Shown: positions 105 to 61,800 of the stretch, piece after piece
Layout: every line of letters starts with the position of its first letter
Position numbering within the stretch: the first letter of the stretch is position 1
Assembly (NCBI GenBank): GCA_963693285.1
Contig: OY848917.1
Coordinates: 16,911,245 to 16,975,244 of the forward strand
Reading direction: 5' to 3'
DNA: 64,000 nucleotides
Source of the DNA: Xestospongia muta
Taxonomy: Eukaryota > Porifera > Demospongiae > Haplosclerida > Petrosiidae
Notes under the pieces: model-generated
Told to the model about the DNA's origin: nothing
Databases searched by the model: none
The model's input: the letters and a program-made list of their open reading frames with translations, nothing else
Translations under genes and position numbers: made by a program

Positions 105-265
105 ACCTAGAAGGAGATAAAGAAGCTACTAGTTTGTTGACAGTTAATGCTGAGAATCTCATGAATGCTGTTGGTGTAGTACTTAATACCACAGAGAGTG
201 CTTTAATAAAAGTACCTCTAGATTCTCGTGTACACTTGACTGGTCTAAACTGGGTTAAAAAATAA
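105..265 (+). CDS. Terminal vinculin-tail exon of a family A gene that starts left of the window
   Basis: A good acceptor (ttgattttacag) opens an exon that reads in phase to a stop at 263-265. It encodes about 53 residues, including KEATSLLTVNAENLMNAV and, near the end, GLNWVKK. The pattern (acidic start, ATxLLxxNAxNLM, V/I-rich helix, T/AESALIK, then xWVxK) follows the last helix and C-terminal arm of the vinculin tail, the actin- and PIP2-binding end of vinculin. It matches the last exon of the gene at 35135-54028, but here the C-terminal arm is intact, whereas that copy stops 17 codons earlier. The other exons lie outside the window, so whether the gene is active cannot be judged. The downstream flank (266-480) recurs at 5210-5290, 54080-54240 and 56887-57050. 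Confidence 0.75.
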
Positions 266-4123: not shown

Positions 4124-5203
4124 GGACATTAATGAAGTTACAATTGCTAATAAGTGTTATGACATTAAGCCAATGATGTATCCATTTCAAGTAAAGTCCT
4201 AGTTGATGTTGTGAAATTAGATTTTGTATTGTTAAAGGTTTCTAGGAAACTCATTGATCAATGTCAACCAGACACTGCTGTACTACCTTATTTAAAATAT
4301 AAAGTCTCTCTCAAAGATGAGAGGAAACTCCCTGACTTAGAGCTCACTTTTAATGGAATAAGTGAACAAATGAGTTTGGTAATTTCTTGTTATGAATTGG
4401 AACAAATACAGGAGACAACAAGTGAGTGACATTAAAAATAGAATATACTCATGTTTTATATTAATATCAGCATAAAACATTGCCTGAGCTTTTCCAAAAT
4501 ATTGAAGTAATATAAAGAAATGTTTGCTCATTTTGCTGATATAGCTCACCCTACCAGCACTCTTTCCACTCCTACTCCTACAACTGCCAGCATGCCTACT
4601 TCTGTTCCTACTACTGCCAGTGTGCCTACTTCCACCAGTAGTCCTCCTTCTATCTATACACAGTCATCATATTATCCATTAGGAATATCTGATGAATTAT
4701 TATGTGAGTTATGCAATATGCTAGTTAATGGATAATTTGTTATTAAATTAATTGAATCATCTTTCACATTTTCTCATTATTAGGTAAAAAGCCCAAGAAA
4801 GAGCACCTGATGACACTACTTCACGAAATTAGGTGGAGGTGGAATATTATTGGTGAACAACTTAAAGTGCATTATGGTGATATAAAGTCTGCTGAATATA
4901 ATGTGGCATATGACCATACCACAAAACTCTCAGAAGTTCTTCAGGTCTGGATGGACAAGAGAACATGTGAAGTGTCTTGGAGAATGATTATCACTGTTGT
5001 GAAGAAGCCACCTGTAGAACACAAAGTAGTAGCTGAAAAGATATATAAATTCTTAGCAAGGCCTGAGATCAGGAATGAATACCTCTCTTTTGATCAACCT
5101 GGTAAAGTTAAAAATATATATTTAATGATTTTTTCTATGTCATTCTATAGGTCAAGTGATTACCACTTTTAATTCTCCACCTCCAGCTCAACCAACCTTA
5201 TAA
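4124..5203 (+). pseudogene. Family A fragment: UPA and death-domain exons without ankyrin, ZU5 or vinculin tail
   Basis: The fragment begins inside an exon. Bases from about 4130 to 4191 match the 3' half of exon 50106-50237 and end at a donor. It continues with exons 4238-4421 (UPA-like; PYLKYKVSLKDE), 4545-4703 (Thr/Ser/Pro-rich linker with about four PTTAS/PTSV-type repeats), 4784-5101 (death-domain-like; LSEVLQVWMDKRTCEVSWR) and 5151-5203, which is open to a TAA at 5201-5203. All exons are open and phases are kept. After the stop the sequence switches to the flank that normally follows the vinculin-tail exon, so the proline-rich and vinculin-tail exons were deleted. The left end is joined to the truncated TGFBRAP1. 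The linker is longer than in the main gene (53 against 42 codons). It is probably a pseudogene, but a short UPA-death protein could be made if it is transcribed. Confidence 0.75.
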
Positions 5204-35134: not shown

Positions 35135-38100
35135 AATGACAATCTAATTGAATGTGTTAAGAAAGGAGATTTGTCTGGAGTGCAAAATGCTCTCTCAAGA
35201 GGAGCCAACATAAATGTTCTAAATGAAGTAAAATTTCATTTATTGTACAAGCAATATTTGATTTTAAATGAAGCAGCCTATCTGATTATGTTTCTTTGAA
35301 TAAAAATAATCCTATCAAATCCTTGTTTCCACATTAATGTTAACTTTAAGTCTATATTAACTATATTATTGCCTAAGCAATCAGTATTTCTGACCTCGTA
35401 TAACTCCAGATACTATTATAGGGTTTGTGTATGTTTTAATAATAGTTTAGTGTATTAGTAGTTTAATTTTATAGTTGATACTTTGTTTGTTTATATAATA
35501 GGATGGATGGGCAGCTCTTCATTTTGCAAGTTATGAAGGACACTCAAATATTGTTAAGCTATTACTCACTCATGGAGCTAATATCAATGTTGTTATTGAG
35601 GTAATTCAAATCATGAGAATAAGTGTGTTTTACTTTAACCTTTAAGTTGTATGAATAGATAGTAACTATTAGAGAAGACATAGCATAGACTTTATAATTT
35701 TACTATATTAACAATGAAAAGCAAAATGTGCAGAACTCTTGACACAATAGTAGATGAATTACACTGAATGATATTACTTTGCAATTGGCAGCTACCATTG
35801 TATGAGAATTTATCAAGAAGTGAATCATTATTGGAAACCTAATCCTAAATAGTACACATTCATTGTAGTAAATTTTACAAGTACTATTACTGTTACATTA
35901 CTCACAAGCCTGCTATAATTATTACCTGGTAACAAACACATAGACATACTTATACACAGAGCAATACAGTAATCTTAACTCACACTACAGCCACAAGGGT
36001 TAATGAGGAAGTAGTCTAAAAAATTAGATCCTTGTCATATTATGTTTTCTTTTTTATAATTGTGAGCTGATCTGCAAACAGGGACCACTTCTGTTAAAAC
36101 ATCTCAAAAATATACAGTTGTTGTGTACACAAGCATACATTTTCAATAGATGTTTACAAAATGATATCTCAGTTTAAAAACAATAGATAACATGAAATGT
36201 AAAACTTAGTAAGAATTTTATTGAAGAAATTGCTTACGCAATTACAGTAAGTGTTTTTAATGGTTTGATAGAAGAGGTCCCTTTTCACAAATCAGGTCAC
36301 ATTTTGTACTCATATTTATGGTAATGTGATTACTTGTCATCTCTATGTGTCATTTACAATATCATAGAGAGTAAGTGTCATATAATGTAATATAACTTCT
36401 AAGTTTAGTGTATACAATGGTGTTAATTTGTTTTCTTTCTTATATTTTGCTCTCATATTTATGTTGATGTGATTACTTGTCGTCTCTATGTGTCATTTAC
36501 AATACCATAGAGAGTAAGTGTTATATAAAGTAACAGAACTTCTATGTTTAATGTATACAATGGTGTTATTTTGTTTTCTTTCTTATATTTTGCTCCTATA
36601 TTTATGTTGATGTGATTACTTGTCGTCACTATGTGTCATTTACAATACCATAGGAAATAAGTGTTATATAATGTAATATAACTTGAAAGTTTAGTGTATA
36701 CAATCGTGTTATTTTGTTTTCTTTCTTATATTTTGTTCCCACATTTATGGTGATGTGATTACTTGTCGTCTCTATGTGTCATTTACAATACCATAGGAAG
36801 TAAGTGTTATATAATGTAATATAACTTCTACGTTTAGTGTATGCAATGGTGTTATTTTATTTTCTTTCTTATATTTTGCTCCCATATCTATGTTGATGTG
36901 ATTACTTGTCGTCTCTATGTGTCATTTACAATACCATAGGAAGTAAGTGTTATAAAATGTAATATAACTTCTAAGTTTAGTGCATGCAATGGTGTTATTT
37001 TGTTTTCTTTCTTATATTTTGCTCCCACATCTATGTTGATGTGATTACTTGTCGTCTCTATGTGTCATTTACAATATCATAGAGAGTAAGTGTTATATAA
37101 TGTAACGTGTATACAATGATGTTATTTTGTTTTCTTTCTTATATTTCACTCCCACATTTATGATGATGTGATTACTTGTCATCTCTATGTGTCATTTACA
37201 ATATCATAGTTGGTAAGTATTATATAATGTAATATAACTTCTAAAATTATTGTATACAATAGTGTTATTTTGTTTTCTTTCTTATATTTTCCTCCCATAT
37301 TTATGTTGTTGTGATTACTTGTCATCTCTATGTGTCATTTACAATATCATAGTTGGTAAGTATTATATAATGTAATATGACTTCTAAAATTATTGTATAC
37401 AATGGTGTTATTTTGTTTTCTTTCTTATATTTCGCCCCCACATTTATGATAATGTGAATACTTGTCGTCTCTATGTGTCATTTACAATATCATAGAGAGT
37501 AAGTGTTATATAATGTAATATAACTTCTAAGTTAAGTGCATGCAATGGTGTTATTTTGTTTTCTTTCTTATATTTTGCTCCCATATTTATGTTGTTGTGA
37601 TTACTTGTCGTCTCTATGTGTCATTTACAATATCATAGAGAGTAAGTGTTATATAATGTAATGTGTACACAATGGTGTTATTTTGTTTTCTTTCTTATAT
37701 TTCGCTCCCACATTTATGATAATGTGATTACTTGTCGTCTCTATGTGTCATTTACAATATCATAGAGAGTAAGTGTTATATAATGTAATATAACTTCTAA
37801 AATTAGTGTATACAATGGTGTTATTTTGTTTTCTTTCCTATACTTTGTTCCCATATTTATGGTGATGTAATTATTTGTTATCTCTATGTGTCATTTACAA
37901 TATCATAGTTGGTAAGTATTATATAATGTAATATAACTTCTAAAATTAGTGTATACAATGGTGTTATTTTGTTTTCTTTCCTATACTTTGTTCCCATATT
38001 TATGGTGATGTAATTATTTGTCATCTCTATTTGTCATTTACAATATCATAGTTGGTAAGTGTTATATAATGTAATATAACTTCTAAGTTGAGTGTATACA

Positions 38101-41100
38101 ATGGTGTTATTTTGTTTTCTTTCTTATATTTTGCTCCCATACTTATGTTGTTGTGATTACTTGTCGTCTCTATTTATCATTTACAATATCATAGAGAGTA
38201 AGTGTTATATAATGTAATATAACTTCTACGTTTAGTGTATGCAATCATGTTATTTTGTTTTCTTTCTTATATTTTGTTCCCATATTTATGGTGATGTGAT
38301 TACTTGTCGTCTCTATGTGTCATTTACAATATCATAGGAAGTAAGTTTTATATAATGCAATATAACTTCTAAGTTTAATATATACAATGGTGTTATTTTG
38401 TTTTCTTTCTTATATTTTGTTTTCATATTCATGGTGATGTGATTACTTTTCGTCTCTATGTGTCATTTACAATATCATAGTTGGTAAGGGTTATGTAATG
38501 GAATATAACTTCTAAATTTAGTGTATACAATGGTGTTATTTTGTTTTCTTTCCTATACTTTGTTCCCATATTTATGGTGATGTGATTACTTGTCGTCTCT
38601 ATGTGTCATTTACAATATCATAGGAAGTAAGTTTTATATAATGCAATATAACTTCAAAGTTTAGTGTATACAATGGTGTTATTTTGTTTTCTTTCTTATA
38701 TTTTGTTTTTATATTTATGGTGATGTGATTACTTGTCGTCTCTATGTGTCATTTACAATATCATAGTTGGTAAATGTTATATAATGGAATATAACTTCTA
38801 AATTTAGTGTATACAATGGTGTTATTTTGTTTTTTTTATATCTTGTTCCCATATTTATGGTATGTGATTACTTGTCGTCTCTATGTGTCATTTACAATAT
38901 CATAGGACGTAAGTGTTATATAATGTAATATAACTTCTAAGTTTAGTGTATACAATGGTGTTATTTTGTTTTCTTTCATATATATTTTACTCCCATATTT
39001 ATGGTGATATGATTACTTGTCATCTCTATGTGTCATTTACAATATCATAGTGTGTAAGTGTTATATAATGTAATATAACTTCTAAGTTTAGTGTATACAA
39101 TGGTGTTATTTTGTTTTCTTTCCTATACTTTGTTCCCATATTTATGGTGATGTAATTATTTGTTATCTCTATGTGTCATTTACAATATCATAGTTGGTAA
39201 GTGTTATATAATGTGAAATAACTTCTAAGTTTATTGTCTAAAATAGTGTTATTTTGTTTTCTTTCTTATATTTTGCTCCCAAATATATATTGATGTGATT
39301 ACTTGTCGTCTCTATGTGTCATTTACAATATCATAGAGAGTAAGTGTCATATAATGTAATATAACTTCTAAGTTTAGTGTATACAATGGTGTTAATTTGT
39401 TTTCTTTCTTATATTTTGTTCACATATTTATGATGATGGGATTACTTCTTGTCTCTATGTGTCATTTACAATCCCATAGTTGGTAAGTGTTATATAATGT
39501 AATATAACTTCTATATTTAGTGTGTACAATGGTGTTATTTTGTTTTCTTTCTTATATTTTCTTCCCATATTTATTGTGATGTGATTACTTGTCGTCTCTA
39601 TGTGTCATTTACAATATCATAGGAAGTAAGTGTTATATAATGTAATATAACTTCTAAGTTTAGTGTATACAATGGTGTTATTTTGTTTTCTTTCTTATAT
39701 CTTGTTCCCATATTTATTGTGATGTGATTTTTTGTCATCTTTATGTGTCATTTACAATATCATAGGAAGTAAGTGTTATATAATGTAATATAACTTCTAA
39801 GTTTAGTGTATACAATGGTGTTATTTTGTTTTTTTTATATCTTGTTCCCGTATTTATGGTATGTGATTACTTGTCGTCTCTATGTGTCATTTACAATATC
39901 ATAGAACGTAAGTGTTATATAATGTAATATAACTTCTAAGTTTAGTGTATACAATGGTTTTATTTTGTTTTCTTTCATATATATTTTACTCCCATATTTA
40001 TGGTGATATGATTACTTGTCATCTCTATGTGTCATTTACAATATCATAGTTGGTAAGTGTTATATAATGTCATATAACTTCTAAGTTTAGTGTATACAAT
40101 GGTGTTATTTTGTTTTTTTTATATCTTGTTCCCGTATTTATGGTATGTGATTACTTGTCGTCTCTATGTGTCATTTACAATATCATAGAATGTAACTGTT
40201 ATATAATGTAATATAACTTCTAAGTTTAGTGTATACAATGGTGTTATTTTGTTTTCTTTCTTATATCTTGTTCCCATATTTATTGTGATGTGATTTTTTG
40301 TCATCTTTATGTGTCATTTACAATATCATAGGAAGTAAGTGTTATATAATGTAATATAACTTCTAAGTTTAGTGTATACAATGGTGTTATTTTGTTTTTT
40401 TTATATCTTGTTCCCGTATTTATGGTATGTGATTACTTGTCGTCTCTATGTGTCATTTACAATATCATAGAACGTAAGTGTTATATAATGTAATATAACT
40501 TCTAAGTTTAGTGTATACAATGGTTTTATTTTGTTTTCTTTCATATATATTTTACTCCCATATTTATGGTGATATGATTACTTGTCATCTCTATGTGTCA
40601 TTTACAATATCATAGTTGGTAAGTGTTATATAATGTCATATAACTTCTAAGTTTAGTGTATACAATGGTGTTATTTTGTTTTTTTTATATCTTGTTCTCG
40701 TATTTATGGTATGTGATTACTTGTCGTCTCTATGTGTCATTTACAATATCATAGAATGTAAGTGTTATATAATGTAATATAACTTCTAAGTTTAGTGTAT
40801 ACAATGGTTTTATTTTGTTTTCTTTCATATATATTTTACTCCCATATTTATGGTGACATGATTACTTGTCATCTCTATGTATCATTTACAATATCATAGT
40901 TGGTAAGTGTTATATAATGTAATATAACTTCTAAGTTTAGTGTATACAATGGTGTTATTTTGTTTTCTTTCCTATACTTTGTTCCCATATTTATGGTGAT
41001 GTGATTACTTGTCATCTCTTTGTGTCATTTACAATATCATAGTTGGTAAGTATTATATAATGTAATATAACTTCTAAGTTTAGTGTATAAAATGGTGTTA

Positions 41101-44100
41101 TTTTATTTTATTTTCTATATTTTGTTCCCTTATTTATGTTGATGTAATTACTTGTTATCTTTATGTGTCATTACCAATGTCATAGAGAGTAAGTGCTATA
41201 TAATGTAATATAAGTTTTAAGTTTAGTGTTATATAATGTAATATAACTTTTAAGTTTAGTGTATACAATGGTGTTATTTTGTTTTCTTTTTTATATTTTG
41301 TTACCATATTTATGGTGATGTGATTACTTGTCATCTCTTTGTGTCATTTACAATATCATAGTTGGTAAGTATTATATAATGTAATATAACTTTTAAGTTT
41401 AGTGTATAAAATGGTGTTATTTTATTTTATTTTCTATATTTTGTTCCCTTATTTATGTTGATGTAATTACTTGTTATCTTTATGTGTCATTACCAATGTC
41501 ATAGGAAGTAAGTTCTATATAATGTAATATGAGTTTTAAGTTTAGTGTATACAATCTTGTTATTTTGTTTTCTTTCTTATATTTTTCCCATATTTATGGT
41601 GATTCGATTATTTGTCATCTCTGTATGTCATTTACAATGTCATAGGGAGTAAGTGTTATATAATGTAATATAACTTCTAAGTTTAGTGTATACAATGGTG
41701 TTATTTTTGTTTTCTTTTTTATATTTTGCTCCCATATTTATTGTGATGTGATTAATTGTTCTGTCTATATGTCACTTGCAATATGATAGAGAGTAAGTGT
41801 TATATAATGTAATATAACTTCTAAGTTTACTGTATACAATTGTGTTATTTCGTTTTCTTTTTTATATTTTTCTCCCATATTTTTGCTGATGTGATTACTT
41901 GTCGTCTCTATGTGTCATTTACAATATCATAGGAAGTATGTTTTATATAATATATTATAACTTCTAAGTTTAGTGTGTACAATAGTGTTATTTTGTTTTC
42001 TTTCTTATATTTTCTTCCCATATATATGGTGATTCGATTATTTGTTATCTCTATATGTCATTTACAATATCATAGGAAGTTAGTGTTATATAAAATAATA
42101 TAACTTCTAAGTTTAGTGTATACAATAGTGTTATTTTCTTTTCTTTTATATATTTTATTCCCATATTTATTGTGATGTGATTACTTGTCATCTCTATATG
42201 TCATTTACAATATCATAGGAAGTAAGTGTTATATAATGTAATATAACTTCTAAGTTTGGTGTATACAATAGTGTTATTTTGTTTTCTTTCTTATATTTTG
42301 CTCCCATATTTATGGTGATGTTATTACTTGTCTCTATGTGTCATTACCAATATCATAGAGAGTAAGTGTTATGTAATGTAATATAACTTCTACGTTAAGT
42401 GTATACAATGGTCTTATTTTGTTTTCTTTCCTATATTTTGCTCCCATATTTATGATGATGTGATTACTTGTCGTCTCTATGTGTCATTTACAATATTACA
42501 GCGGTAAGTGTTATATAATGTAATATAACTTCTAAGTTTAGTGTATACAATGTTGTTGTTTTTTTCTTTCTTATATTTTGCTCTCATATTTATGATGATG
42601 TGATTACTTGTCGTCTCTTTGTGTCATTTACAATATCATAGGGAGTGAGTGTTATATAATGTAATATAACTTTTAAATTTAGTGTATACAATGTGTTATT
42701 TTGTTTTTTTCTTATATTTTGTTCCCATATTTATAATGATGTGATTATATGTCATCTCTATGTGTCATTCACAATATCATAGCCAGTAAGTGTTATATAA
42801 TGTAATATAACTTCTAAGTTTAGTGTATACAATGGTGTTATTTTGTTTTCTTTCTTATATTTTGTTGCCATATTTATGGTGATGTGATTACTTGTCATCT
42901 CTATATGTCATTTACAATATCATAGGAAGTAAGTGTTATATAATGTAATATAACTTCTAAGTTTAGTGTATACAATGGTGTTATTTTGTTTTCTTTCTTA
43001 TATTTTGCTCCCATATTTATGGTGATGTTATTACTTGTCTCTATGTGTCATTACCAATATCATAGAGAGTAAGTGTTAGATAATATAATATAACTTCTAA
43101 GTTTAGTGTATACAATGGTGTTACTTTGTTTACTTTCTTATATTTTGTACCCATATTTATGGTGATGGGATTACTTGTCATCTCTATGTGTCATTTACAA
43201 TATCATAGAGAGTAAGTGTTATATTATGTAATATAACTTCTACGTTAAGTGTATACAATGGTCTTATTTTGTTTTCTTTCCTATATTTTGCTCCCATATT
43301 TATGATGATGTGATTACTTGTCGTCTCTATGTGTCATTTACAATATTACAGCTGGTAAGTGTTATATAATGTAATATAACTTCTAAGTTTAGTGTATACA
43401 ATGTTGTTATTTTTTTTCTTTCTTATATTTTGCTCTCATATTTATGATGATGTGATTACTTGTCGTCTCTTTGTGTCATTTACAATATCATAGGGAGTAA
43501 GTGTTATATAATGTAATATAACTTTTAAATTTAGTGTATACAATGTGTTATTTTGTTTTTTTCTTATATTTTGTTCCCATATTTATAATGATGTGATTAT
43601 ATGTCATCTCTATGTGTCATTCACAATATCATAGAAAGTAAGTGTTATATAATGTAATAATACTTGTAAGTTTAGTGTATACAATGGTGTTATTTTTTTT
43701 TCTCTCTTATGCTTTGCTCCCATATTTATGGTAATGTAATTACTTGTCGTGTCTATGTGTCATTTACAATATCATAGAAAGTAAGTGTTATATAATGTAA
43801 TATAACTTCTAAGTTTAGTGTATACAATGGTGTTATTTTGTTTTCTTTCTTATATTTTGCTCCCATATTTATGGTGATGTGATTACATTTTGTCTCTATG
43901 TGTCATTTACAATATCATAGGTGGTAAGAGTTATATAATGTAATATAACTTCTAAGTTTAGTGTATACAATGGTGTTATTTTGTTTTCTTTCTTATGTTT
44001 TGTTCACATATTTATGGTGATGTGATTACTTGTTGTCTCTATGTGTCATCCATTGTAGTAAATGTTATGAGTACTATTATTTCTAATTATTGAGAAGCCT

Positions 44101-47100
44101 ACTTTAATCAGAATTGTCTAAAGACTTATAGTCAAAGCTTTACTTCATACAAATGATACCAATTAACCACAATGTGTGTGGTAGTGACAGTCACTTGGTC
44201 AATTGACAGTTTCTTTAGACCCTTTTCCTTTGTTAATCTATAATGTTGTGATTGTTTATCTTGTATAATGATTGTTAATTTAATTAATGTAAGTGTGTGT
44301 ATAAATTTATTTTGTTAAATTATTTATATTGTGGGGAATTGAGAGTATATGGCTCTTTCAAAAGAGATTACATTGCTAAACTTGTACTGTGATGTTGTTA
44401 ACATAGTGTAGAGACTTAAAGAACATTTTGTGCTTGTTTGAGAATTTGTAGCATTGATAATACTTCTATACGTAATCTATGTTTCTGTTAAAGAAGCTAT
44501 CTGTTGAAATTGCTTGTGTGAGAAAGATAACTAAGTGTTTGTTATAGCCTTTTCTAAAATGGCATGTGTAAATTGTCTTTGTAAAGAAGTCTATTCTTCC
44601 TCTATGCTAATAAGAAATGAGCAATTTTAATATGATCACAGACTACTGTAAAGTGTCAAATTTATATTTATAATGTCATGTTGATAATTGTGCAAAAATA
44701 TGTCAATTGTGATGTAATGTCTATGTATATTTGTGTACTTAGAGTGTTATTTGTATTGATGACATTATTGTAAGAGTTATTGAGAGTAGTTTGCTTAGTA
44801 TAAGAGTAGTTAATTTGACTCATACTTTGTAATATTGTCTATGTTTATAATGTTACTAGTGTACTCATGTAATACATACATATATACAACACTATTAGTA
44901 TATATAATGTACAAATGTTATGATATATTCTTTAGTTCACATTAATGTGGTTATTATAATATATTTAGGAGGGATCTACTCCAGTGATATTAGCAGCAAA
45001 GAGGGGACACAGGGATATTGTTTTGATTTTAGCACAGAAAGGAACCAATCTAGACATTGTTAACAAAGTAAGTGTTTATGTACATATGTTATATAACAAA
45101 CCTTATATAACTGAAGATGAAATGTAGCTGTCTTAAAAAATATGGAAAATGAATGATTATCACAATAGGAATAGTTTTTTTATAAAACTAAAAAAATTAT
45201 TACAATTTTAATGAATTTTCTACAAACATAAGTGCTATTGTGACTGCCAATTAAATGGAAAGATATTGTAGATCATTTAGCAATGAACATCCAACTTCTT
45301 TTAGTAATGGGTATCTTTGACATTTCAGATAGTTGGTGATTGTCAGTTGTTAAGCTATTATCTTAGAATAGAGCAAGTTGTGTAGCTTTGAATATATGCA
45401 GGCAAAAGGTATATAAAGATGTAGCTAACAAGACTGGATTGCTTCATTTAACTTGCTACACTAGATACACCATGTCTACTGCTTTGTGTATGCATATATT
45501 TTAATATCTTTTTATTAGCTTTAGTTACCATTTCAGCAGTAAAAAATGGATTTCTTAATTATGCACAATACATGACAGAGATATTCTGTTATTGTGCTAC
45601 AGCTTTACTAGTTCTACCTACTACTTTGATGTTCAGCTGAAACATCGTACTGAATAGTTAGAGATTTGAATTTGGTTTTGATAGGAATACTTTTTACCTC
45701 TAAACAGATGATTATTTTCCAAAATCAACAATGGTGTTTAAACTCATGGAAATGTTTTACTTAGTATTAGACTATTAAAAGTAAAATTGAACCACTGAAA
45801 TAGTCTTGGAAGACTAGCCCATTTGCTTAGAGAGAAAGCTCTCAAAGTTGTTGCTCGTCTAAATAGTTAATAGCTGTTATCCAATATTACCAAAGCAATG
45901 AGCACTTGCTGGCTTCAAATAACACCAGCCACTATTTTAGAGTTTGTGTATGTTTTAAATTCCCCTATTTACCCATGGTCTCTAATAAAACGAGTAACAA
46001 GATCAAACCAGACCTCCAAACATTTCAAATACAGAGTTATTAACTGAAAACAAATAAGTAGCTAGAATTAGCACATTTTATCCCTTCAGTTAAGTGGACA
46101 CCTTACAACAAATGGTTTTATAGGAAGACTAAGGCCTACACTTTTGAATAACAATTCAAGTGCAGGCCAGCCACATATCACAATATAAAATCACCAATAT
46201 TAAAAAGGGCTCAAAACTGTAAAAAAAAAAGATTAATTTTTTTTACATTCTTTGAGGTGCTGATTAAAGAGGTTTAACTCCTTTTGAAAATGAGTTTGAG
46301 ATTTATCTGACTCAGATTGGTTTGCCTGGACAGACTGAAGAATTCTGCCAGGGAAGATTCTTAAATAGACAAGTAAATGATATTCTCATAGTGGGTTGAG
46401 GATATAATAAGTAACAGGAAATGAGGTCACTACAAGTACTCCCCCCTAGTATGCGAGACACATAGAATATACATAGAATATACTGTAACTAGTGTGTGAT
46501 AGTGTTGTCTAAACACTGGTAGGATGAGGTTTACCAGGAAGGTGAAAAGGTGGGGTTCATAAGTTTGGAGAATTGCTAAAGGTGTTGTTCATCCACGTCA
46601 TCATCATTTGAAACATTGATAGGGAAAGGACGTTTTGTGAGTCAAGGACCTACTGCTTGTTCACCATAAGCAATACTACTACCGCCTTTGGTATAAACAG
46701 CAGCATCATAGATAAAAGTAGGGTTGGTGAGTCCTTCGAAACTAGTAGGATTAGTACCAGTAGCTTGATTAGTAATACCAATTTGTCCCGTAGTACGGAC
46801 TTTAGTGGACCATGACAGTGGAGCAGTTTGAGCACTGATCCTGGTAACTGATTTGACGACGGGAATAGGAAGTTGTCCAAGAGTGTTATCTCGTTGAGCC
46901 TGTTTAGCGTAACGTACTTCTTTACTATTGATATGTCTTCTTGTGAAGTTGTTTCACCATCCATGAGACTGACGAAATCGACGAATAAATTGCATGTCTC
47001 TGAGAGTTGACTTGTCTATATAAGTCTGTTTCGTGATACTGACTGATCACTCATCTGCAGGCAAGGTGAAGCGAAACCCTGTGGTGACAGTAGGCTTCCA

Positions 47101-50100
47101 TTCAGTTATGGAAGACTAATGCTGTTGAGAGCCAGAGAGCATGCTTTAGGTCGCATGTCTGGGTCACCAAATAAAGAGGTGAGGTTTAACATCCGGGTCA
47201 CCAAATAAAGAGGTTTAACTCTTTATGAGAATGAGTTAGAGCTTTATCTGACTCGGATTGGTTTGCCTGAACAGACTGACGAATTCTCAATTCTCCCAGG
47301 GAAGATTCTTAAATAGACAAGTAAATGATATTCTCATAGTGGGTTGAGGATATAATTAGTAACAGGAAATGAGGTCACTACATGATTTTGATTACATTCA
47401 CATTTTAATAAGGTGATCTAGAAAAGATCAAATATTAATTATTTATTAAGTTATTTATGAAATTATTACTTTTCTATCTTAGTGAAGTAACAAGGGAGCA
47501 ATGCAACTTTACATAGATGAAAGTGTTGGCAGGGACAGTACTATCCTTTGAATAGTTAGGAAAGTGCCCACTTCAATAAAAGCAGAGGCAGCTCCACAAC
47601 AAAACAGCTCACAAAATCACATCCACCAAAAATATTCCTCATGCCAAGTTTATCAATGAGAAAAATGGCAACAAACAAGAGCACCTAAAAAGGTACTTGA
47701 CTGTATCTTTCTAAAAAATTCGAAAAAGCAGAAGAATAGGTAAAACATTGAGAGGAATCTCGTCATGGCTTTGCAATGTTTAAAAAGTACTGTTACTGCT
47801 GCAGAGGCTCTTCATCTTAATTGATTGTCTCATCTTTTTTTCAAGTAATGATTCTTATAATATAAGGCAATATCCTTGATAGCAAGTTAGCATTCTAACT
47901 GCTATTTTACGTGTCTCAGATATCCTATTTATTACCTGCTTCCTCCAATTCCACTTTTGTTACTGTATTAAAAAGTTTTGCTGGAGCTTTATGCAGAATA
48001 AGCAAACTTTTTGGCAGTTTTTCTGACATACAGATAGCCATCTCAAGTTAGATTTAAAATAATAAAGATGGAAATGCTACATGAATATGCAATACATAAT
48101 GTTTTGAGGAAAATGTGTATGTCAAAGAAAACAACTTGTGTCCCTGAGACTTTAAGTGACTCAGGAGGAGCATTGTTCATACAGTGCATGGTGTAAAGAG
48201 AAATTCTACATGACAAAACTCAAAATTTAAGCTGGTCTCTGACTGTAAAATTTATTTTATAATAGTTGGCCAGGCAGATTGCCCCATTCATGTGTTGACA
48301 GGATAAATAAGTCTTGCCAATTATGGCGTCAACTCTATTCCTAAAGATGTATCATTAAATATCACAGTGCTTAATATTAGGGTGGTCCTGTAAAAAAATG
48401 GCTGGAGCATAACATAAGCAACAAATTCATGACGAGGTTTCGTATCATGAGTCATAACTTTCACTACAACTGCGTGGTTGAAGCTGGCAATTTACTAATG
48501 TAAATGTTTAATGTCATGGATGGACATGATAAAGAGTTGAATGAATGGATTGACATATAAATGACATGATGCCTATGAAAGCATACATCATACAGGTGCC
48601 ATCTATTCAGACTTTCGACTGACTTCCATCCATTCACTATCCCCATGCACCAGGACAAACATTAAAGATACTTTGATAGTATTGACATCAGAGATATTTA
48701 CAGCCGATTCCTCTTCTAATTCTGATTCTAGTTCTAGTAGGGCTACTTGATAATGCCTAAAGATGTAGTGCATGAAGATAACTTTATAATTACATAAACA
48801 TGAAAGCTCATTATCCTATAAGATATTGGTGACTGAGAAATGTTTGTCTTTTATTGTGTAATACAAAGAAACAGTAAAAAAAGAAAGTCAATCAGGTATT
48901 GAGCTAAGTGTTGGGTATGATACTTAAGGCATTGCCCACACTTATGATCAGTCATTACTTAGATGTATATTATGGTGTAACAGCAAAACCTAAGTATAGA
49001 GTCCTGATCAGCTATACTGAGGAGATATTTAGTGTTTTACTTAGTCTTAAGGCTATATATCAGAGTACATGATATTAATTTGTCTAGGATCACATGACAG
49101 CTCTACATTGGGCCTCAAGCAACAATCATACTGAGATAGCCCAGTTACTCCTGCAGTATAGTGCAGATCCTAATATTTGTGACAAGGTTAGTCTATGACT
49201 TCGTTTATTGTAAATCTACTTTAACGCAGGATGGTAATACTGCATTGCATATTGCCTGCAAAGGAGGTCATATAAATATTGTACAATCCTTGCTATCTCG
49301 TGGAGCAGATATGACTATTAAGAATAAAGAGGATAAGACTCCATTAGATGAATGTCAAGACACAAGCAAGGATGAAATTGTTAGTCTTTTCTCTGAGTAC
49401 AATCCAAAACGAGGTGAGGTATTAAACAACAACTATGTAGCACTCCTACTTGTTTGATTTGTTATTATTTAGTTTTAGAAGATGTGTCTATATGGAATAT
49501 TGAATACCTCAATGAAGAGCAGGTTTTTGAGAAACCAGAGTATGGAATCAAGTTTGTCATTCCACCATCATCAGTGGATGTAGGACAAGAAGTCAAAACT
49601 GAAGTCAACATAGTTGCACCAGAGGATTCAGAGATCATCCTCCCTTGTGATGTTGAGCTTGTTAGCTGTTTCTATAAGATTAAAACAACAGGAAAATTCT
49701 CCAGACCTATTCAACTTCATCTTCAACATAACGTTGAGCTAAGATCGCAAGAGGAAAGCCAACACCTAGCCTTTGTCAGAGCAAGAGGACCACCACCTTA
49801 CAAGTTTGAGCTTCTACCAACTAAATCAAGCCAAGTGTTCAGACCTTACAACAATTCTGGTGTCATAAGAATCTCTGATTTTTATCTCATTGGTATCATC
49901 CAAAATTTAATTAATTCTCCAATTGAATGGCCATCTCACAGTTATATAATGACAGTCTTTTTCAAGGAGATGGAGAAATTTTGTTGGGAAATACAAGCAG
50001 TGGTCACAAAAAATCTTGGACCTTTTCTTGAGGTATGGAAGACACAACAAAAAGAGAATTACAATACTAGATTACAACTGTATACATGTTATTTGTCTAT

Positions 50101-53100
50101 ATTAGAGAGTGAACACAGAGAAACGCTTTGAAAACTGGAAAAGGATAGACCCAGTTACTTTCTTTGATCCTGAGATTAATGGAGTTACAATTGCTAATGA
50201 GTATTATGACATTAAGCCATTGATGAATCCATTTCAAGTAAAGTTCAGTTGATTTTATGATCTTTTAAATATAGTGTCCTTTAAGGTTTGTAGGAAAGTG
50301 GTTGATAAATGTCAACCAGACATGGCCCTACCTTACTTAAAATTTAAAGTCTCTCTCAAACATAAGAATGAACCCCCTGACCTAGAGCTCACTTTTAAAA
50401 GAATAGGTCAACCGTTGACTTTGGTAATTCCTAGTTATGATTTGAAACAAGTACAGGAGACAACAAGTGAGAGACAATAAAAATAGGATCTAGTCATGTT
50501 TCTGTTAGCATAACACATTGCTGGAGCTTTTATAAAATACTGAATATACTAATATGTATGCTCCTTTTCCTAATAGTTATCTCTGACAGCACTCCTTCCA
50601 CCACTACTCCTACTACTGCTAGTATACCTACTTCCACCAGTAATCCTCCTTCTATCCATATGCACTCATCATATCCATCAGGAATATCTGATAAATTATT
50701 ATGTGAGTTATGTAATATCCAAGTTAATGAATAATTTTGTCATTGAAATAATTGAGTTGTCTTTCTTATTTCCTTAACTATTAGGTAAAGCACCTAAGAA
50801 ACAACACCTGATGACACTACTTCACAAAATTAAGTACATGTGGGATATTATTGGTGGACAACTTGCTGTGTCTCATAATGTTATCATGTCTGCTCAAAAC
50901 AGTGCACCATATAATGATACCAGAAAACTCTCAGAAGTCCTTCAGGTGTGGATAGACGAGAGAACATGTGAAGTGTCTTGGAGAAAGATCATCACTGTTG
51001 TTGAGGAGCCACCTGTAGAACACAAAGATGTAGCCGAGAATATATTTCACTTCTTACAAAGACCTGAGATCAGGAGTGAATATCTTTCTTCTTATCAACC
51101 TGGTAAAATTAAATATATATATATATATTTAACAATTGTTCCTACATCACTCTATAGGTCAATTGATTTCCACTTTTTATTCTCCTCCTCCAGTTCAACA
51201 AAAACCTATTGAGACAAAAGGTATAACTATATAGCTATAATGTTAAATAAGAGGTATATTAATAATCTTTATTGTAATCAGATGCTTAACATTAATTCCC
51301 ATGCATTTCAGATAATGATAAGGATCCTACTGTCACATTCAAATCTAAAAATGAAGGTGTGTATTATAAATGTACCCAACCTCCAAATACACCACATCTT
51401 GGTGAGAAAATACATATACAATAAGTAGACATTTTTTCTCCACCTCCAGCTCAAACAAAACCTACTGAGATTAAATGTATAACAATATAATAAATGACTC
51501 ATTTGCATATTTGTTATATTTCAGATCATCCTAGTATTGCTACTACTCCACCTCCAATTGGACCAAAACCAGCTGAAAAGAAAGGTACCCACAACTAAAT
51601 ATACTCTAAGATACTTACATTATAGGTCAATCTTTATCTGGTGCCCAATCTCCAAATACAACACAACTTGGTGAGAAAGTAGATAGCAACAATTAGACAA
51701 ATTTCTTTATATACCATGAACATATTTGAAAGGATTTAAATATTAATTTCTTTCTAGTGAAAGTAGAGGAAATGGAACAAGAAGCTCCCTTACAGTCAAC
51801 CAATCCTATTGGAGTAAGTTAATTAGTTATTATGATTTATTACTATAATATTATGTGACATAATTTCATAAAACTCTTACATAATGTAATAATACATACC
51901 ACAAAGTGGTTATGCAACAATTCAAGTGTTCATCTGAAGTTTTATATTCTTCTACAATATATACATATAAGATTACAGATAATGATTAAATATGAAAATA
52001 GGCTTATTATTTTTGTCTTAGTCTACTGGCAATGAAATATTTATAATAGAAGAGTTTATTTTATATATATTTGAAAAAAATATTTTGCAAAATTTGGGCT
52101 GATTGTGATTGTGTATACATATTTATATATAAATGCAAATAAGTGTAATAGTATTATGAATGCATCTCTCTTTTTAGTTTGCTGCTTATTGTCTTCATGA
52201 ACAAGCTAAACAATGGGAGGAAAAAGATAATGACGTGATACTAGTTACTAAACGTATGGCCAGACTGATGATGCAAATGTCAAAGTTTGCCCAGTAAGTG
52301 TTATAGAGTGAAATGTATTACTTCAATATGTAGTTTATAGAAGTTCATAGAATCCAAACTAAACATTACAAATATAAGTATACTTGGTATAGTGTATAGT
52401 CTGTTAGTACTGTATCCTGAGTACTCCACTAGTGTATTACTTTCAGTTTAAAGATAACTTTGATAACCTTTCCTCTATAGAGAGGAAGAAAGTGATGTGA
52501 AATCTAAAGATGATTTTATCCAAACAGCTAAACTTATTGTCAATGACAATTTAGAAATTGTTAAAATAGCTAAACAAGTTGCTGAACTCTGTACAGACAT
52601 ACAATTGAAAAGTGTGAGTTAAAGAGAGTTTGATAACAAAAAATATTCATGCTGTATATTCTAAAATTTTTGTGAGAAAAATGTTTTGCAAATTTCTTTT
52701 AAATAGGAATTTTGTGAAAAAATTGTGAAATCTGGTATATGCAAATGCCAAGCCCATTGTACATGAACAATCTTAAGAACAATAAACTTCTTGAAAACTT
52801 TCTTACAGTATTGATAACACCAATTTCACAAGCATATCTTAGCAATCTTGGCATTCTCTTCTGTGAACAAATCCTAGTAGGTAGCACATTTAGTTCTCCA
52901 ACTGTCATGTTTTGATTGTAGTAGTATTAACTCAGTAACACTTTCATTAGCTGCTGCAATGTTGGAGGACAAAAGCTGTGAGGAAAGTGGACCTTGTGGG
53001 TTGGGAAAAATAGAATAATCCTTCTTAAAATACTTCAATAGAGCCACGTGGTTACAACTCACAATGTTGACTCCAATAATATTTAATGTTGACTGTAATA

Positions 53101-54028
53101 TATTTTATTAAAATTTGAAAATTCTTTTACTTAAAAAATTTAATGTATATAGTACATAGAGTACCTTTTAATGTGTGAGTAACTTTCTAATTATCCATTG
53201 TTAACACATCTTATAAGAATTAATAGTAACTGTATACAGCTATTTATACCTGAGTTTGGTCATTTGTTAACTTTTTTTCATTCTATTTTATATCCTCCAT
53301 TACAGACTCTGTCACCTCTTCTTGGCAGTATTCCAACTTATGCCATACAATTTCAAATACACGTTGGTAAGCATGCAAGAAACAGAGGAGGAAATAGTAA
53401 GTTATAAACTAAGAAGTACTACTATTCAATCATTGAGTAACAAAAGTAAAAATAATGAAAAAGTGTGTCATTATAGTGTTGTTATATTATTTTGACACAA
53501 TGTACCTTTCATCCACAAATTATACTGCATGTACATGGCTATGGGGCGCCGTTTGTGTCAAAACTGGAAAAATGTCATGATATATGATAAATCGTGGGTT
53601 ATTTAGTAAATCATACATTATTTAATAAATTATGATAATTTTCCAATTTTGACACAAACAGTTACGGGTCACTATTTGTGTCAAAATTGGAAAATTTTCA
53701 TGATTAAATAAGTCATTATTAATTAAATAACTCTTGATTTATTTAATAAATCATCCATTATTTAGTAAATCACAATTTATTTAACAAATAATGAGTATTA
53801 AAAGTAAATCAATTTTGACACAAACGGCACAACATACATGTCATATCATATATGTAGTTTACACATAGTGTTATGTATGTACATTCTCTACCTTGTGCAT
53901 ACTTCCATGATTTTATAGACCCTGAAGCAGATAAAGAAGCCACCAGATTGTTGACACTCAATGCTGAGAAACTCATGAATGCTGTGAGTGAAGTACTCAA
54001 TATTACAGAGAGTGCTTTAACAAAATAA
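35135..54028 (+). CDS. Ankyrin-ZU5-UPA-death-vinculin tail fusion protein (main copy)
   Basis: Twenty exons join in consistent phase to 894 codons including the stop. Ankyrin repeats, one phase-0 exon each: 35135-35227, 35502-35600, 44969-45067, 49088-49186, with a fifth in 49230-49413 (DGNTALHIACKGGHINIVQS). ZU5: 49473-50032 (EYGIKFVIPPSSVDVGQEVK, CDVELVSCFYKI). UPA: 50106-50237 and 50286-50466 (LPYLKFKVSL). Thr/Ser/Pro linker: 50577-50702. Death-like domain: 50785-51102 (LSEVLQVWIDERTCEVSWRK). Pro-rich linker: 51158-51220, 51312-51401, 51450-51476, 51525-51584, 51626-51670, 51758-51813. Vinculin-tail-like: 52178-52293 (NDVILVTKRMARLMMQMSKF), 52481-52613 (KIAKQVAELCTD), 53306-53396 (IPTYAIQFQI), 53919-54028 (RLLTLNAEKLMNAV). 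ZU5-UPA-death is the supramodule of UNC5, PIDD and ankyrins; the vinculin tail binds F-actin. The stop (54026-54028) comes 17 codons before that of the copy at 105-265. The start codon is not settled. Confidence 0.8.
35866..35925. repeat. Left flank of the satellite, resembling its right flank
   Basis: The run from cattgtagtaaa through gtactatta to aagcct is found again, diverged, at 44049-44100 immediately after the last satellite unit. The pair brackets the array. Confidence 0.5.
36294..44048. repeat. 143-bp satellite array, about 54 units, inside an intron
   Basis: Successive units space at 143 bp: the word catttacaat starts at 36351, 36494, 36637, 36780 and 36923, and so on. Typical words are tgtgtcatttacaatatcat, tatataatgtaatataactt and gtgttattttgttttctttc. 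Most units are full length. A subset lacks about ten bases around ttttttatatcttgttcccg. Units 39690-40800 show a higher-order pattern. The array fills most of the intron between the second and third ankyrin exons (35601-44968), the largest intron in the window. No unit contains a long open frame. Confidence 0.95.
45068..49087. other. Intron 4 of the main family A gene (4.0 kb)
   Basis: It contains the small LTR element at 46261-47386. 47490-47760 has a word-like composition in one + strand frame (KQRQLHNKTAHKITSTKN, interrupted by stops), which may be a decayed DNA transposon I cannot name. Nothing else is supported. Confidence 0.4.
46261..47386 (-). mobile_element. Small non-autonomous LTR retrotransposon
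   Basis: Two direct repeats, 46265-46434 (170 bp) and 47206-47382 (177 bp), differ mainly by a 7-base insertion. They bracket about 770 bp, and TGAT flanks the element on both sides (46261-46264, 47383-47386), a plausible 4-bp target duplication. Read on the - strand, each repeat begins TGTAGTGACC, and the 5' one is followed by tttggtgacccgg, a plausible primer-binding site; that site is partly duplicated (about 47161-47206). The internal part holds only one short gag-like frame (46964 down to 46650, with a second overlapping open frame). No protease, reverse transcriptase or integrase is present, so movement would need help from a full relative. Confidence 0.75.
52690..53062 (-). pseudogene. 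Decayed repeat-associated protein fragment in a family A intron
   Basis: In the intron between exons 52481-52613 and 53306-53396, - strand frames read VALLKYFKKDYSIFPNPQGP then NIAAANESVTELI, and after a frame change RYACEIGVINTVRKFSR. The second part resembles the helix-turn-helix-like AKIAKYAxExGVxxAxRxFS motif I associate with transposon-linked proteins of sponges and cnidarians. It is broken by stops and frameshifts. Confidence 0.35.
53548..53828. mobile_element. MITE-like element with nested inverted repeats
   Basis: The outer ends gccgtttgtgtcaaaa (53548) and ttttgacacaaacggc (to 53828) are perfect inverted repeats. An inner inverted copy, ccaattttgacacaaac and gtgtcaaaattgg, lies at 53642-53690. 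The element can therefore fold as two successive stem-loops, each closed by the same end sequence, as if two MITEs had inserted head to tail. It lies in the last intron, just upstream of the final vinculin-tail exon. Confidence 0.8.
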
Positions 54029-56721: not shown

Positions 56722-56887
56722 ACCTGAAGCAGATAAAGAAGGTATTAGATTGTTGACAGTTAGTGTTATGAATCACATGACTGCTGTGGATGTAGTACTT
56801 AACACTACAGAGAGTGCTTTAATAAAATATCTCAAGGAGCTCCTGTGGACTCGACTGGTTTAAGATGGTCAAAACATCGCACTGAAC
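56722..56887 (+). pseudogene. Extra vinculin-tail terminal exon, frameshifted
   Basis: A homologue of exons 105-265 and 53919-54028 follows the same kind of acceptor (gattttatag). One base is missing right after the splice site compared with both other copies, which shifts the frame. The homologous register would read ADKEGIRLLTV then VVLNTTESALIK before a further disruption of the C-terminal arm. Its upstream exons are absent: the preceding 2.7 kb is the flank of the main gene, so it is a lone duplicated exon plus its 3' flank. Confidence 0.7.
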
Positions 56888-58841: not shown

Positions 58842-61800
58842 GTTCTTACCTTTGCAGCATCAAATTCTTCACCATGTGTGTTCAAGAGTTTTAGTGCTTG
58901 TTTAATAAGAGGTGGTTTGGAACTAAAATAATATTATGTTAGTTAATAAAGGGTTAACTAACTTACCCATCAGATGGTCTAAGGTAGACAGTTAATAATG
59001 TCTGGTATACTCGTTGACGATCTTGTCTGCTACGACCCTATCATAATTAAAGTTATATTATATCATATTCTATAACAAACTTATAACATGTATTATATTA
59101 TTGAATCTTGTTTAAATATATATATTAGCTTACCTTTGTATATATAGAACAATATCGTTCAGCACCTTCATAATCCTGTAAATGATGAGCTAATATACTA
59201 AGAGCTTTTTCATGTTCATCCATCTGTATAAATTATAAAGACACATAATAACTACATAATAACTACTGTTATGTACATGTACAAGTATACTCTCTCATGA
59301 TAACATTATAATAAATGTGTTAGTGTATATATATGTGTGTGTGTGTGTGTGTATATATACATTTACATGTATAGTTTTAAGATTTTTATGATTAAAGAAA
59401 TGATATGTGAGGTGTCTATCAAGTTTTACCACTGATATATGCTACAATACATTGACTTACTCTGCCATAAAGAATAGCACATTCTTTGTATAAGTCAGTG
59501 TCTTGAACTCTGTTTAATAAAAAGGAGGCACGATAACTAGATGATTCTTCAAGAAAGCTCTGTAATTTTGCCCTGTCAAATAATAAATATGATAATTAGT
59601 AATGTTAGACTGATTTTAAAATGTTAATCTTATTAAGTGTCATGTAAAATGGATCAACAATATTTATATATGTACCTGGCCTCCTTTAAGTGTTTGGTAT
59701 TCTTCTCTTCTTTTAACTTTAATACTTTTTCTAAATACAACATACCAAGACGAGTATGAAAGACCTCATCCTAGACAACACAACAATAAACAGTATACCT
59801 GTAATATTATTAATACATACATTATCAATATAATAGACTTATTAAATGATATATTAGTATTAATAATACACTATTACCTTCAATTCTAGTTCATGTATTA
59901 AGTGTTCTAAGTAAAGTAGACTAGCTTGAACATATGGTGATAATTTTTCAAGTACTACAGAATGTTCTAGTTGTACACGTCCTTTGTCTTTACCAAGTCT
60001 GTCAATAAATATTTTAACTCCTTTTAGTTCATCATGATCTAGTACCCATTTAGAATACTTCAGTAGTAAATCATTATCAATAAACCTGGAATATAAAGAT
60101 AATATAATATTATATTGTATATAGTAATATTGCTAACATCAGCAATATTAAATACTCATTACAGAAACCACCAAAGTTCTACACTATAGCACTGTCAGTT
60201 AGATATATAATATATCATATAACTACATGTATATTAACTCTACTATTAATTGTATCTATTATATTTAGTTATAATTCAATATAGTATACATTAATATCAG
60301 CAATAAGACACACCCAATTCAATGTAATTTCATGTTTGATATTAGAATTTTATCACATACTAATATTACCGATAATCAGGATAGTCACTAAAATCACTAA
60401 ATTAGACACTCAAGAACAGTAGAAGTAGAATGTGTCATACAACTACAATTAATAGTAAGATTAAACTGCATAACAAGTCATGTGACGACAATTAATAGTA
60501 GGATTAAACTGCATAACAAGTCATGTGACTACAATTAATAGTAGGATTAAACTGCATAACAAGTCATGTGACTACAGTTACTAGTAGGATTAAACTGCAT
60601 AACAAGTCATGTGACTACAATCTCAACTCACGATGTTAAAAACTTGACAATGTGATCAAGTCCAGGAAATTGATTATCAGATAATTTTCCATCATATATT
60701 CTAGTCCATATTTGTAGTGCAGTATCCACATTACCATTATAATAATATAGTAAACCCAGAGCAAAATAACACTAGAGAAATAGTATATTATCAAAAAATA
60801 ATAATATCATTTGGTGATATATAAATGTACATGTGTCTGGATATACAAATGTACCAATACTTTATTAGTTGTTAATAATACCTTAAAACAACTGATAGAG
60901 ATAAGTCAGATAATTATGATATATTCTTTAATAACTTATTATAATACCAAGCTATGCAGTTACTAGACAATAACAAATTATACAGGTGCTTTTCTAACTA
61001 TCCAATCTTGTATAGAGTTTATAATCAACTATAACAAAAAGTACCTGATTCTTCTCAAATGCAACTCGAGCATCTTCAAAGTTGAGATAGAGTTCATGAT
61101 GTTCAATATAATTTATAAGAGATGATGGATTGTCTTCAGCTAATAACTTCACTAGAACAGTGTCCACCTCCTACACATATACATATATAGAGATACATTT
61201 ATCTAGTTATTTAGCAATTTAAAAATAGTTTACAGTTTTCTGTATCAGTGGTTATAAACTATATATACAAAATACCAGACACAACTGAATAGTACAATAT
61301 ATTGACAAAATATAATAGTGCTTAGTGGGTTAAAATTTATGAGTAAAATTAATATATTTTAACCCTCATTATTACTCTACAGTTATCAACTCAATAAAAT
61401 ATAGAACTATACCTCTTTTCTTCCCAAAGCAACAGCTGTAGTTCGTATTTCTTTCTAAGGTGTGTAAATATGAAGTGTAAATATAAAATATATAAAAGTA
61501 CTCACTAAATATCTGATTAAAAACTTTTTAGCTTCTTTCATGTTAATCTTTCCATCATTAGCTGTAATAATAGAAATAACAACATCACATGGATAAAACA
61601 ACTTTGTTAATTATTATGTAGTCTGTGGTCATATAACATTAACTAAGAGCACTACAATCACTACATATACTAAAGATAGAGACTGAGATAATACAAGTAG
61701 TAGTAAGTGTAGGAGGCTATTGTTAGTACAAACCTCTTAGATAACTAGAAATAAAGTCTAGAACATTCAATGATGTTAGATCTTCTATTTTTAATTTATA

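Follow-up and report, generated by a model that had tools for sequence, protein, structure and literature searches.

Gene structure at the locus

A stretch of 64,000 nucleotides from the sponge Xestospongia muta (assembly GCA_963693285.1, contig OY848917.1), hereafter the window, corresponds to 16.91-16.98 Mb of contig C1 in a genome of 158 Mb. On its forward strand, at 35135-54028, it holds a gene whose predicted protein, as read from the genome, runs from ankyrin repeats through a ZU5 domain, a putative UPA segment, a death domain and a linker to a vinculin tail. This joining of ankyrin repeats, ZU5 and death domain to a vinculin tail is almost certainly real at the genome level. Exon borders, exon phases and a tail phylogeny support the view that exons 16-20 arose by DNA-level copying of the hinge and tail exons of the vinculin gene in this genome and were joined downstream of a gene of the ankyrin-ZU5-UPA-death type.

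The original prediction had the exons of this gene splicing in phase, and the frame bears this out: 20 exons join into 866 codons with no stop (checked by script), in a product in which Pfam recognises both ankyrin repeats and Vinculin. Acceptors read AG in 20 of 20 exons and donors GT in all 19 non-terminal exons. The borders were set by eye, the test being a single open frame across all of them. The model lacks its 5' end: no exon with a start codon was found ahead of exon 1, and conservation against a neighbouring copy gave no first exon, the upstream block being uniformly alike. The parts of the gene are as follows.

35135..35227, + strand: exon 1, ankyrin repeat 1 (gene model, Pfam)
35502..35600, + strand: exon 2, ankyrin repeat 2 (gene model, Pfam)
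36301..44049, + strand: tandem array of 54 copies of a 143-bp unit, in the intron between exons 2 and 3
44969..45067, + strand: exon 3, ankyrin repeat 3 (gene model, Pfam)
49088..49186, + strand: exon 4, ankyrin repeat 4 (gene model, Pfam)
49230..49413, + strand: exon 5, ankyrin repeat 5 plus the adjoining downstream segment (gene model, Pfam)
49473..50032, + strand: exon 6, ZU5 domain, with SDFY at the place of PIDD/CARD8 self-cleavage (gene model, Pfam)
50106..50466, + strand: exons 7 (50106-50237) and 8 (50286-50466), UPA by position only
50577..50702, + strand: exon 9, linker rich in Ser, Thr and Pro (gene model)
50785..51102, + strand: exon 10, death domain (family Pfam and profile matches, predicted structure)
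51194-51220, 51312-51356, 51450-51476, 51525-51584 and 51626-51670, + strand: exons 11-15, short linkers
51758..51813, + strand: exon 16, remnant of a vinculin hinge exon preceding the tail
52178..52293, + strand: exon 17, first part of the vinculin tail
52481..52613, + strand: exon 18, next part of the tail, helices 2-3 by alignment
53306..53396, + strand: exon 19, helix 4 region of the tail, with the position of Ile997
53919..54028, + strand: exon 20, helix 5 region of the tail and stop, lacking the C-terminal extension

Linker exons 11-15 all have lengths that are multiples of three and phase 1 on both sides, so that any of them could be skipped with the frame kept. Intron 2 (9.4 kb) consists mostly of the 143-bp array. 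The neighbouring copy C has this array as well, again after exon 2 (L013 3011-10000).

A vinculin tail at the C-terminus

The end of the protein, initially described as vinculin-tail-like, scores as vinculin. The Pfam family Vinculin (PF01044) matches residues 658-866 of the window protein at profile positions 621-831 of 852 (E value 2.8e-33); these are the only positions matched, and no vinculin head was found in the protein by Pfam. Against solved structures the window tail aligns over its full length, best with VIN1 (6bfi, 2.7e-30), which we take to be a sponge protein, and with vertebrate vinculins from 3e-22. PF01044 is matched by nine of nine spliced fused tails of the family (best 1e-40), and a profile of the fused tails matches 6bfi at 3.5e-42. 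By these comparisons the tail is a true vinculin-tail homologue, beyond mere likeness. A C-terminal extension is kept in seven of the nine spliced tails and lost in the window copy and in copy D.

Other sources of the match were considered and rejected. When 20 first-order shuffles of the window were searched as one set, no tail match was better than an E value of 0.24, compared with 2.7e-23 for the real sequence, which argues against chance. An alpha-catenin tail reached 5e-12 at best as against 2.7e-30 for VIN1, and talin models at best 0.0018 for the window tail; with regard to both, the donor gene described below also has a vinculin head segment. A protein database search with the tail gave no match at E <= 0.001 among 129 candidates, in a database inferred to be poor in animal proteins.

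Domains upstream of the tail

The original prediction listed ankyrin repeats, ZU5, UPA, a death domain and the vinculin tail, and a Pfam scan of the full window protein recovers part of that list: the ankyrin repeats (Ank_2, E value 1.4e-37 in the 866-codon protein) and Vinculin are matched, ZU5 falls under its cut-off, and neither UPA nor Death is matched. For the death domain, the predicted structure and the rest of the family carry the assignment, as set out below. The ZU5 domain is marginal in the window copy, as judged by its scores (E value 0.0031 and 18.2 bits in the full protein; 21.1 bits for the exon scored alone, at a PF00791 cut-off of 21), and clear in the family, where PF00791 is matched by 20 of the 20 members given at E <= 0.1 (best 3.3e-8). 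A profile of the ZU5 exon gave one unrelated match in the PDB, at 0.12. The UPA segment of the window gene is placed by position alone.

Pfam Death is matched at E <= 1 in 14 of 19 members (best 7.8e-5), the window exon not being among them. With a profile built from the 19 death exons, FADD is found at 1.8e-4 and PIDD at 0.07-0.09; spurious matches to IgG Fc set in at 0.046. The death exon of the window gene is predicted to form a helical fold with high local confidence (pLDDT 91), and the ten best Foldseek matches to this model are all death domains (probability 0.99-1.00, TM-score 0.58-0.72 by query length), with a best E value of 0.02 and none at E <= 0.001. In its predicted structure, exon 10 has the six-helix fold of the death-domain superfamily.

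The five repeat exons of the window gene compare with nine exons of the exon-4 (E4) type in a row in copy A (L014 4080-6300), and repeat number therefore differs between members. A protein database search with residues 192-720 gave no match at E <= 0.001 among 5858 candidates, again in a database inferred to be poor in animal proteins, and Rfam gave 0 matches on the window.

According to the account given in PMC3210808, cleavage falls at HF/S in PIDD and at SF/S in both CARD8 and NLRP1; the serine is essential, while substitution of the residue before the phenylalanine has little effect on cleavage. At the ZU5-UPA border, 18 of the 19 other rows of the 20-row family alignment read F-S, F-C or F-T: SDFS in A, L017, L018, L008 and L029, SEFS in L021a and L026, SDFC in C and L031, PDFC in L022, L023 and L035, and SHFS or SHFT in six of the seven rows from contigs C2 and C3, the motif being lost in the one exception, L019. 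The window copy reads SDFY and departs from the F-S/F-C/F-T pattern of PIDD and FIIND. L017 also matches Pfam FIIND weakly (0.0077, under the cut-off). These motifs suggest that some family members may self-cleave and that the window copy probably does not.

A family of fused genes

The fusion is repeated elsewhere in the genome. Genome-wide counts are lower bounds, the search having scored the best candidates only. Among the best 87 ZU5 matches, at least 41 are followed by a death exon and a first tail exon in this order and on one strand, on four contigs, and 37 of these 41 chains also have the helix-5 exon. Seen from the tail, a death exon lies no more than 3.5 kb upstream in 45 of the 49 first-tail exons listed; the exceptions are C3:4330719 and three at C1:28.84-28.86 Mb. 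All 11 ZU5 rows of a cluster at 29.07-29.20 Mb carry the tail. Eight of the best 87 ZU5 loci were scored as lacking a death exon; at least three of them (L028, L034 and L035) carry a diverged one by tblastn, so that this class is partly a detection effect. Chains at 41 loci on four contigs, in diverged sequence, rule out an assembly artefact.

Eight loci examined at sequence level have the complete set of domain exons, beginning with one or more ankyrin repeats and ending with the tail: the window gene (W), A, C, L031, L017, L018, L021a and L026. Copy A extends from L014 into window positions 105-265, copy C is made up of L013 and L009 with a gap between them, and linker exons were modelled in only part of the eight. 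In the 102 family exons listed, all acceptors read AG and all non-terminal donors GT; these borders were picked for AG/GT and equal phase, and the test is accordingly that such an open-frame border exists near the homologous place. By script, linker exon 9 received no suitable border in copy A, and the last exon went undetected in seven copies, where it is longer than in the window gene.

Three fragments in the window, at 105-265, 4124-5203 and 56722-56887, had been taken to share the full domain order. On their own they do not show it; the same order in neighbouring copies was seen in the flanking sequence. The fragments and their extents are as follows.

105..265, + strand: last exon of neighbouring copy A, a gene that begins outside the window and has its other exons in L014, upstream
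4125..5101, + strand: partial copy with only UPA-region exons and a death exon (4784-5101)
56723..56827, + strand: last tail exon only (helix 5), standing alone 2.7 kb downstream of the window gene

In a tblastn search with the window gene, the interval separating it from the partial copy showed no tail exon. Elsewhere in the window, an identical 43-bp tandem unit occurs at 8908-9044 and 60442-60621, and an open frame of 168 amino acids at 17264-17770 (+ strand) resembles by eye the DNA-binding start of a transposase; no Pfam family matches the last 134 residues of this frame at E <= 0.1. Near the tail-less relative L019, an open frame at 8904-9227 matches the transposase family DDE_Tnp_1_7 (3.3e-19).

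Truncated 3' units that follow complete genes (L009 5354-8846, L021 8329-9726, C1:16670601-16671960) consist of death and tail exons or of UPA, death and tail exons, with no ZU5 of their own found. Such units may act as alternative 3' cassettes and not be dead copies, as the low ratio of non-synonymous to synonymous substitution rates (dN/dS) between L021b and L021a suggests (0.19 in the death exon and 0.09 in the tail, 101 codons). Tail-less relatives carry other modules downstream of ZU5 and the death domain. By open frames, L032 has an SH3 domain and a second death domain (0.016; 4384-4692 and 5564-5860), and L034 has a second death domain (5.6e-10) and a segment like COR-A (0.0005, under the cut-off; 5351-6088 and 6762-7055 for the L034 modules); L016 has, by eye, a hydrophobic stretch (reverse strand, 5296-5493). 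From these neighbours we read the vinculin tail as one among several exchangeable address modules on a common death-fold chassis.

Origin of the tail

At C1:28843990-28859998, about 0.2 Mb from the cluster of fused genes at 29.07-29.20 Mb, are three copies of the vinculin tail that have no death exon. Two of them, L036 and L037, were examined, C1:28843990 being left out. A vinculin head segment is present in L036: it matches solved vinculins at residues 727-805 (7.7e-8) and PF01044 at 6.4e-9 (35.2 bits, under the cut-off of 38.1). It is followed by a proline-rich hinge exon and by tail exons, and the start phases of these hinge and tail exons (1, 0, 2, 0, 1) are those of the fused genes. Exon 16 of the fused genes corresponds to the 3' part of the L036 hinge exon and is shorter at its 5' end. 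Exon 19 of L036 holds an in-frame stop, and all four tail exons examined in L037 are open. Further vinculin-family matches are a gene at C13:2883469-2887681 (profile 68-791) and C13:621261-621464 (profile 429-496).

A tree of 12 tails unites the nine fused tails in a single clade (100/100), which L036 joins (99/98), with chicken vinculin and 6bfi, both on long branches, outside. The nine again form one clade (100/100) when L037 replaces chicken vinculin. The tail exons and phases common to the fused genes and the genome's own vinculin, together with the single fused clade, point to a capture inside this lineage, and the genome's own vinculin gene is the likely donor. A single capture by DNA duplication would explain the nine tails in the trees. 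The proposal that the fusion was an invention of an early animal is not upheld: its exon borders and phases match the sponge's own vinculin, and the tails group with that gene to the exclusion of VIN1 and chicken vinculin. A vinculin retrocopy is ruled out by the retention of vinculin introns in the tail.

The structure of exon 16 also bears on whether these are single genes. An ankyrin-ZU5-death gene and a separate vinculin-tail gene could adjoin one another and always be duplicated together, and a methionine codon in exon 16 could start a short tail protein in eight of nine copies (L017 has isoleucine); that the fusion is known from genomic sequence alone also leaves room for such a pair. 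Against two genes, however, the window gene keeps its phase across all of its linker exons, nine of nine copies have a phase-1 acceptor for exon 16 with codons ahead of that methionine, exon 16 comes from a hinge exon that is internal in vinculin, and order and strand are repeated at 41 loci on four contigs. A pair of adjoining genes is very improbable, and the genes are treated here as fusions.

Divergence and selection

Two subfamilies were compared, the first consisting of W, A, C and L031 and the second of L017, L018, L021a and L026. In three pairs between them, synonymous divergence is 0.30-0.38 in the tail, 0.91-1.0 in ZU5-UPA and 1.3-1.7 in the death domain; pooled per exon, exon 4 is saturated, exons 5-8 give 0.79-0.98, the death exon 1.52 and exons 16-20 0.27-0.43. 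Ten Fisher tests on five non-independent pairs gave p from 9e-5 to 8e-9. Between vinculin and the fused tails the synonymous divergence is 0.57-0.73. The original prediction placed the fusion before the duplications, which fits copies within a subfamily, but between subfamilies the tail has diverged by 0.30-0.38 as against 0.91-1.7 upstream. Taken at face value, these divergences imply that the ZU5-death lineages split before the capture and that the tail moved between them later.

Two explanations would account for the low tail divergence: the tail may have moved between subfamilies, or constraint may have lowered the synonymous rate in its exons. Tail introns are about as alike between subfamilies as shuffled ones, and a recent transfer of the tail together with its introns is not supported. 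The low divergence would then reflect conversion limited to exons, an older move, or constraint. Within the first subfamily, the window copy and copy A differ at 15-17% of nucleotide sites in ZU5-UPA, death and tail exons.

At the protein level, tail dN/dS is 0.17-0.39 in L017-L021a, L017-L026, W-L026, C-L026 and L031-L026 (five of 14 pairs), 0.44-0.63 in A-C, C-L031, W-C and L017-L018, and 1.13 in L021a-L026, on ten changes. Between the fused tails and the vinculin copy L037 it is 0.27-0.51, compared with 0.17 between the two vinculin copies.

This difference bears on a second explanation of the family. Plants use captured host domains as immune bait (integrated decoys), and the vinculin tail could likewise serve as bait or guard, tampering with vinculin-like surfaces being sensed and passed to death-fold signalling. 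The faster protein change of the fused tails than of the vinculin copies would fit such a role, as would the single capture from the host's own vinculin that accounts for the nine tails analysed, the 41 loci, many of them in tandem, and the several kinds of module downstream in relatives. On the other side, relaxed constraint by itself also lifts dN/dS, and we know of no immune role for any family member. A decoy function is unlikely but not negligible. It is likewise doubtful that the family is an animal counterpart of the plant decoys in the fuller sense, with a cassette moved between subfamilies, about 40 or more loci, and a death platform that reads the state of actin adhesion or an attack on it.

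Actin contacts and a proposed mechanism

Actin-contact residues of vinculin were taken from those described in PMC10721916. In the alignment of the nine fused tails, Ile997, Asn1026 and Glu1042 are conserved in all nine, Gln983 in seven and Arg1008 in four. The polar contacts Arg976, Asn980, Arg987, Arg1039 and Glu1040 are altered in all nine, and Gln1018 is altered in seven and unaligned in two. In the genome's own vinculin L037, read by eye, Asn980 and Arg987 are also altered and Arg976 is kept. Binding of F-actin by the fused tails is plausible on this pattern.

Taken as one reading, a lineage family that captured the tail of its own vinculin and encodes an actin-tethered death-fold scaffold is moderately probable. 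The scaffold considered on its own is the best reading of its function, held at about even confidence. In such a protein the ankyrin repeats would bind a partner or ligand, and ZU5-UPA, by analogy with known systems, would keep the death domain inactive until release. The released death domain would assemble with its partners, and the tail would anchor the protein to F-actin or to sites of adhesion, where signalling would begin.

Several observations weigh against the scaffold reading. UPA is not among the matches of any of the seven spliced ZU5-UPA proteins scanned with Pfam; the ZU5-UPA profile found a single match in the PDB, ZO-1 at E value 1.9, over the ZU5 part and with no UPA; and the predicted ZU5 structure is poor (pLDDT 47.7). 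With UPA unrecognised and the ZU5 model poor, the autoinhibition step leans on analogy. By the limits of the script, 38 of the best 87 ZU5 loci have a death exon and no tail, so that the tail is dispensable in the family (C8:395998, counted as tail-less, does have a tail exon, but at 192 bp downstream of the death exon it falls short of the script's 200-bp minimum). In a tree of 20 ZU5 exons the tail-bearing loci do not form one clade and three changes are needed, the tail-less L022, L023, L035 and L029 falling within the same 13-row group as tail-bearing loci; one gain of the tail with losses may be compatible with this tree. The evidence for the fusion is, moreover, genomic throughout.

Other such points concern the tails themselves. 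Position 976 is Gln in all nine fused tails and Arg in L037. The window tail has Lys at 1001, Gln at 996 and Pro at 983, lacks the C-terminal extension, and gives a dN/dS of 0.79-0.86 in W-A, W-D and W-L031. From these residue changes, this ratio and the lost extension it follows that the window copy may bind actin poorly, and its high ratio and missing extension make it a weaker example of the family.

The window copy could also be a decaying member, with real ancestry and no present function. Its tail dN/dS near 0.8 in three comparisons, its truncated tail, the change of the cleavage-site serine to tyrosine, the stray helix-5 exon 2.7 kb downstream and the failure to find a start codon would all fit decay. 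A frame of 866 codons free of stops and splice junctions that are intact in 19 of 19 cases speak for a maintained gene, an argument tempered by the fact that about 4.7% of random single changes in the frame would create a stop. Decay of this copy is improbable on balance, and the scaffold is the preferred reading for the family.

Comparison with known systems and significance

The fused genes resemble vinculin in having part of its hinge exon and its tail exons with the vinculin phases, in aligning over the whole tail and, in seven of nine cases, in keeping the C-terminal extension; they differ in having no head, with ankyrin repeats, ZU5, a UPA-like segment and a death domain in its place. 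With ankyrins of the ANK1-3 type they share ankyrin repeats, ZU5, the UPA position and a death domain in the same order. Ankyrins, however, carry 24 repeats and two ZU5 domains, whereas the window gene has five repeats and one ZU5 and departs from the canonical ANK-ZU5-ZU5-UPA-death order; we know of no ankyrin with a vinculin tail. PMC5135030 reports no gene with ankyrin repeats and ZU5-ZU5-UPA in nine sponge species. PIDD and NLRP1 have leucine-rich repeats at the N-terminal side, as described in PMC3210808, where the fused genes have ankyrin repeats. Further likenesses to PIDD1, NLRP1 and CARD8 are ZU5, the UPA position and a death-fold domain, with F-S, F-C or F-T kept in many relatives; the window copy differs in that its SDFY lacks the serine needed in CARD8 and NLRP1, and the vinculin tail is new.

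A sponge parallel comes from the study of Kaur et al., which describes expansions of Death and TRADD-N proteins with variable C-termini in Amphimedon (PMC8195603). In both cases death-fold proteins have multiplied within one lineage and differ in the modules at their C-termini, but that family is built on TRADD-N, and vinculin goes unmentioned in the main text of PMC8195603. Vinculin itself is listed in PMC6040629 as a core animal gene family. Among the papers listed in searches of the open-licence literature, a scope outside which most subscription papers fall, none was found that joins a vinculin tail with a ZU5-death module.

The family would link two systems that were not found together in the searched literature, namely ZU5-UPA-controlled death-fold signalling and the actin-binding end of vinculin. 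With donor, capture point and descendants all in one genome, the birth of a signalling architecture may be traced exon by exon, and the family offers a direct test between death-fold scaffolds placed on the cytoskeleton and captured host domains serving as immune bait.

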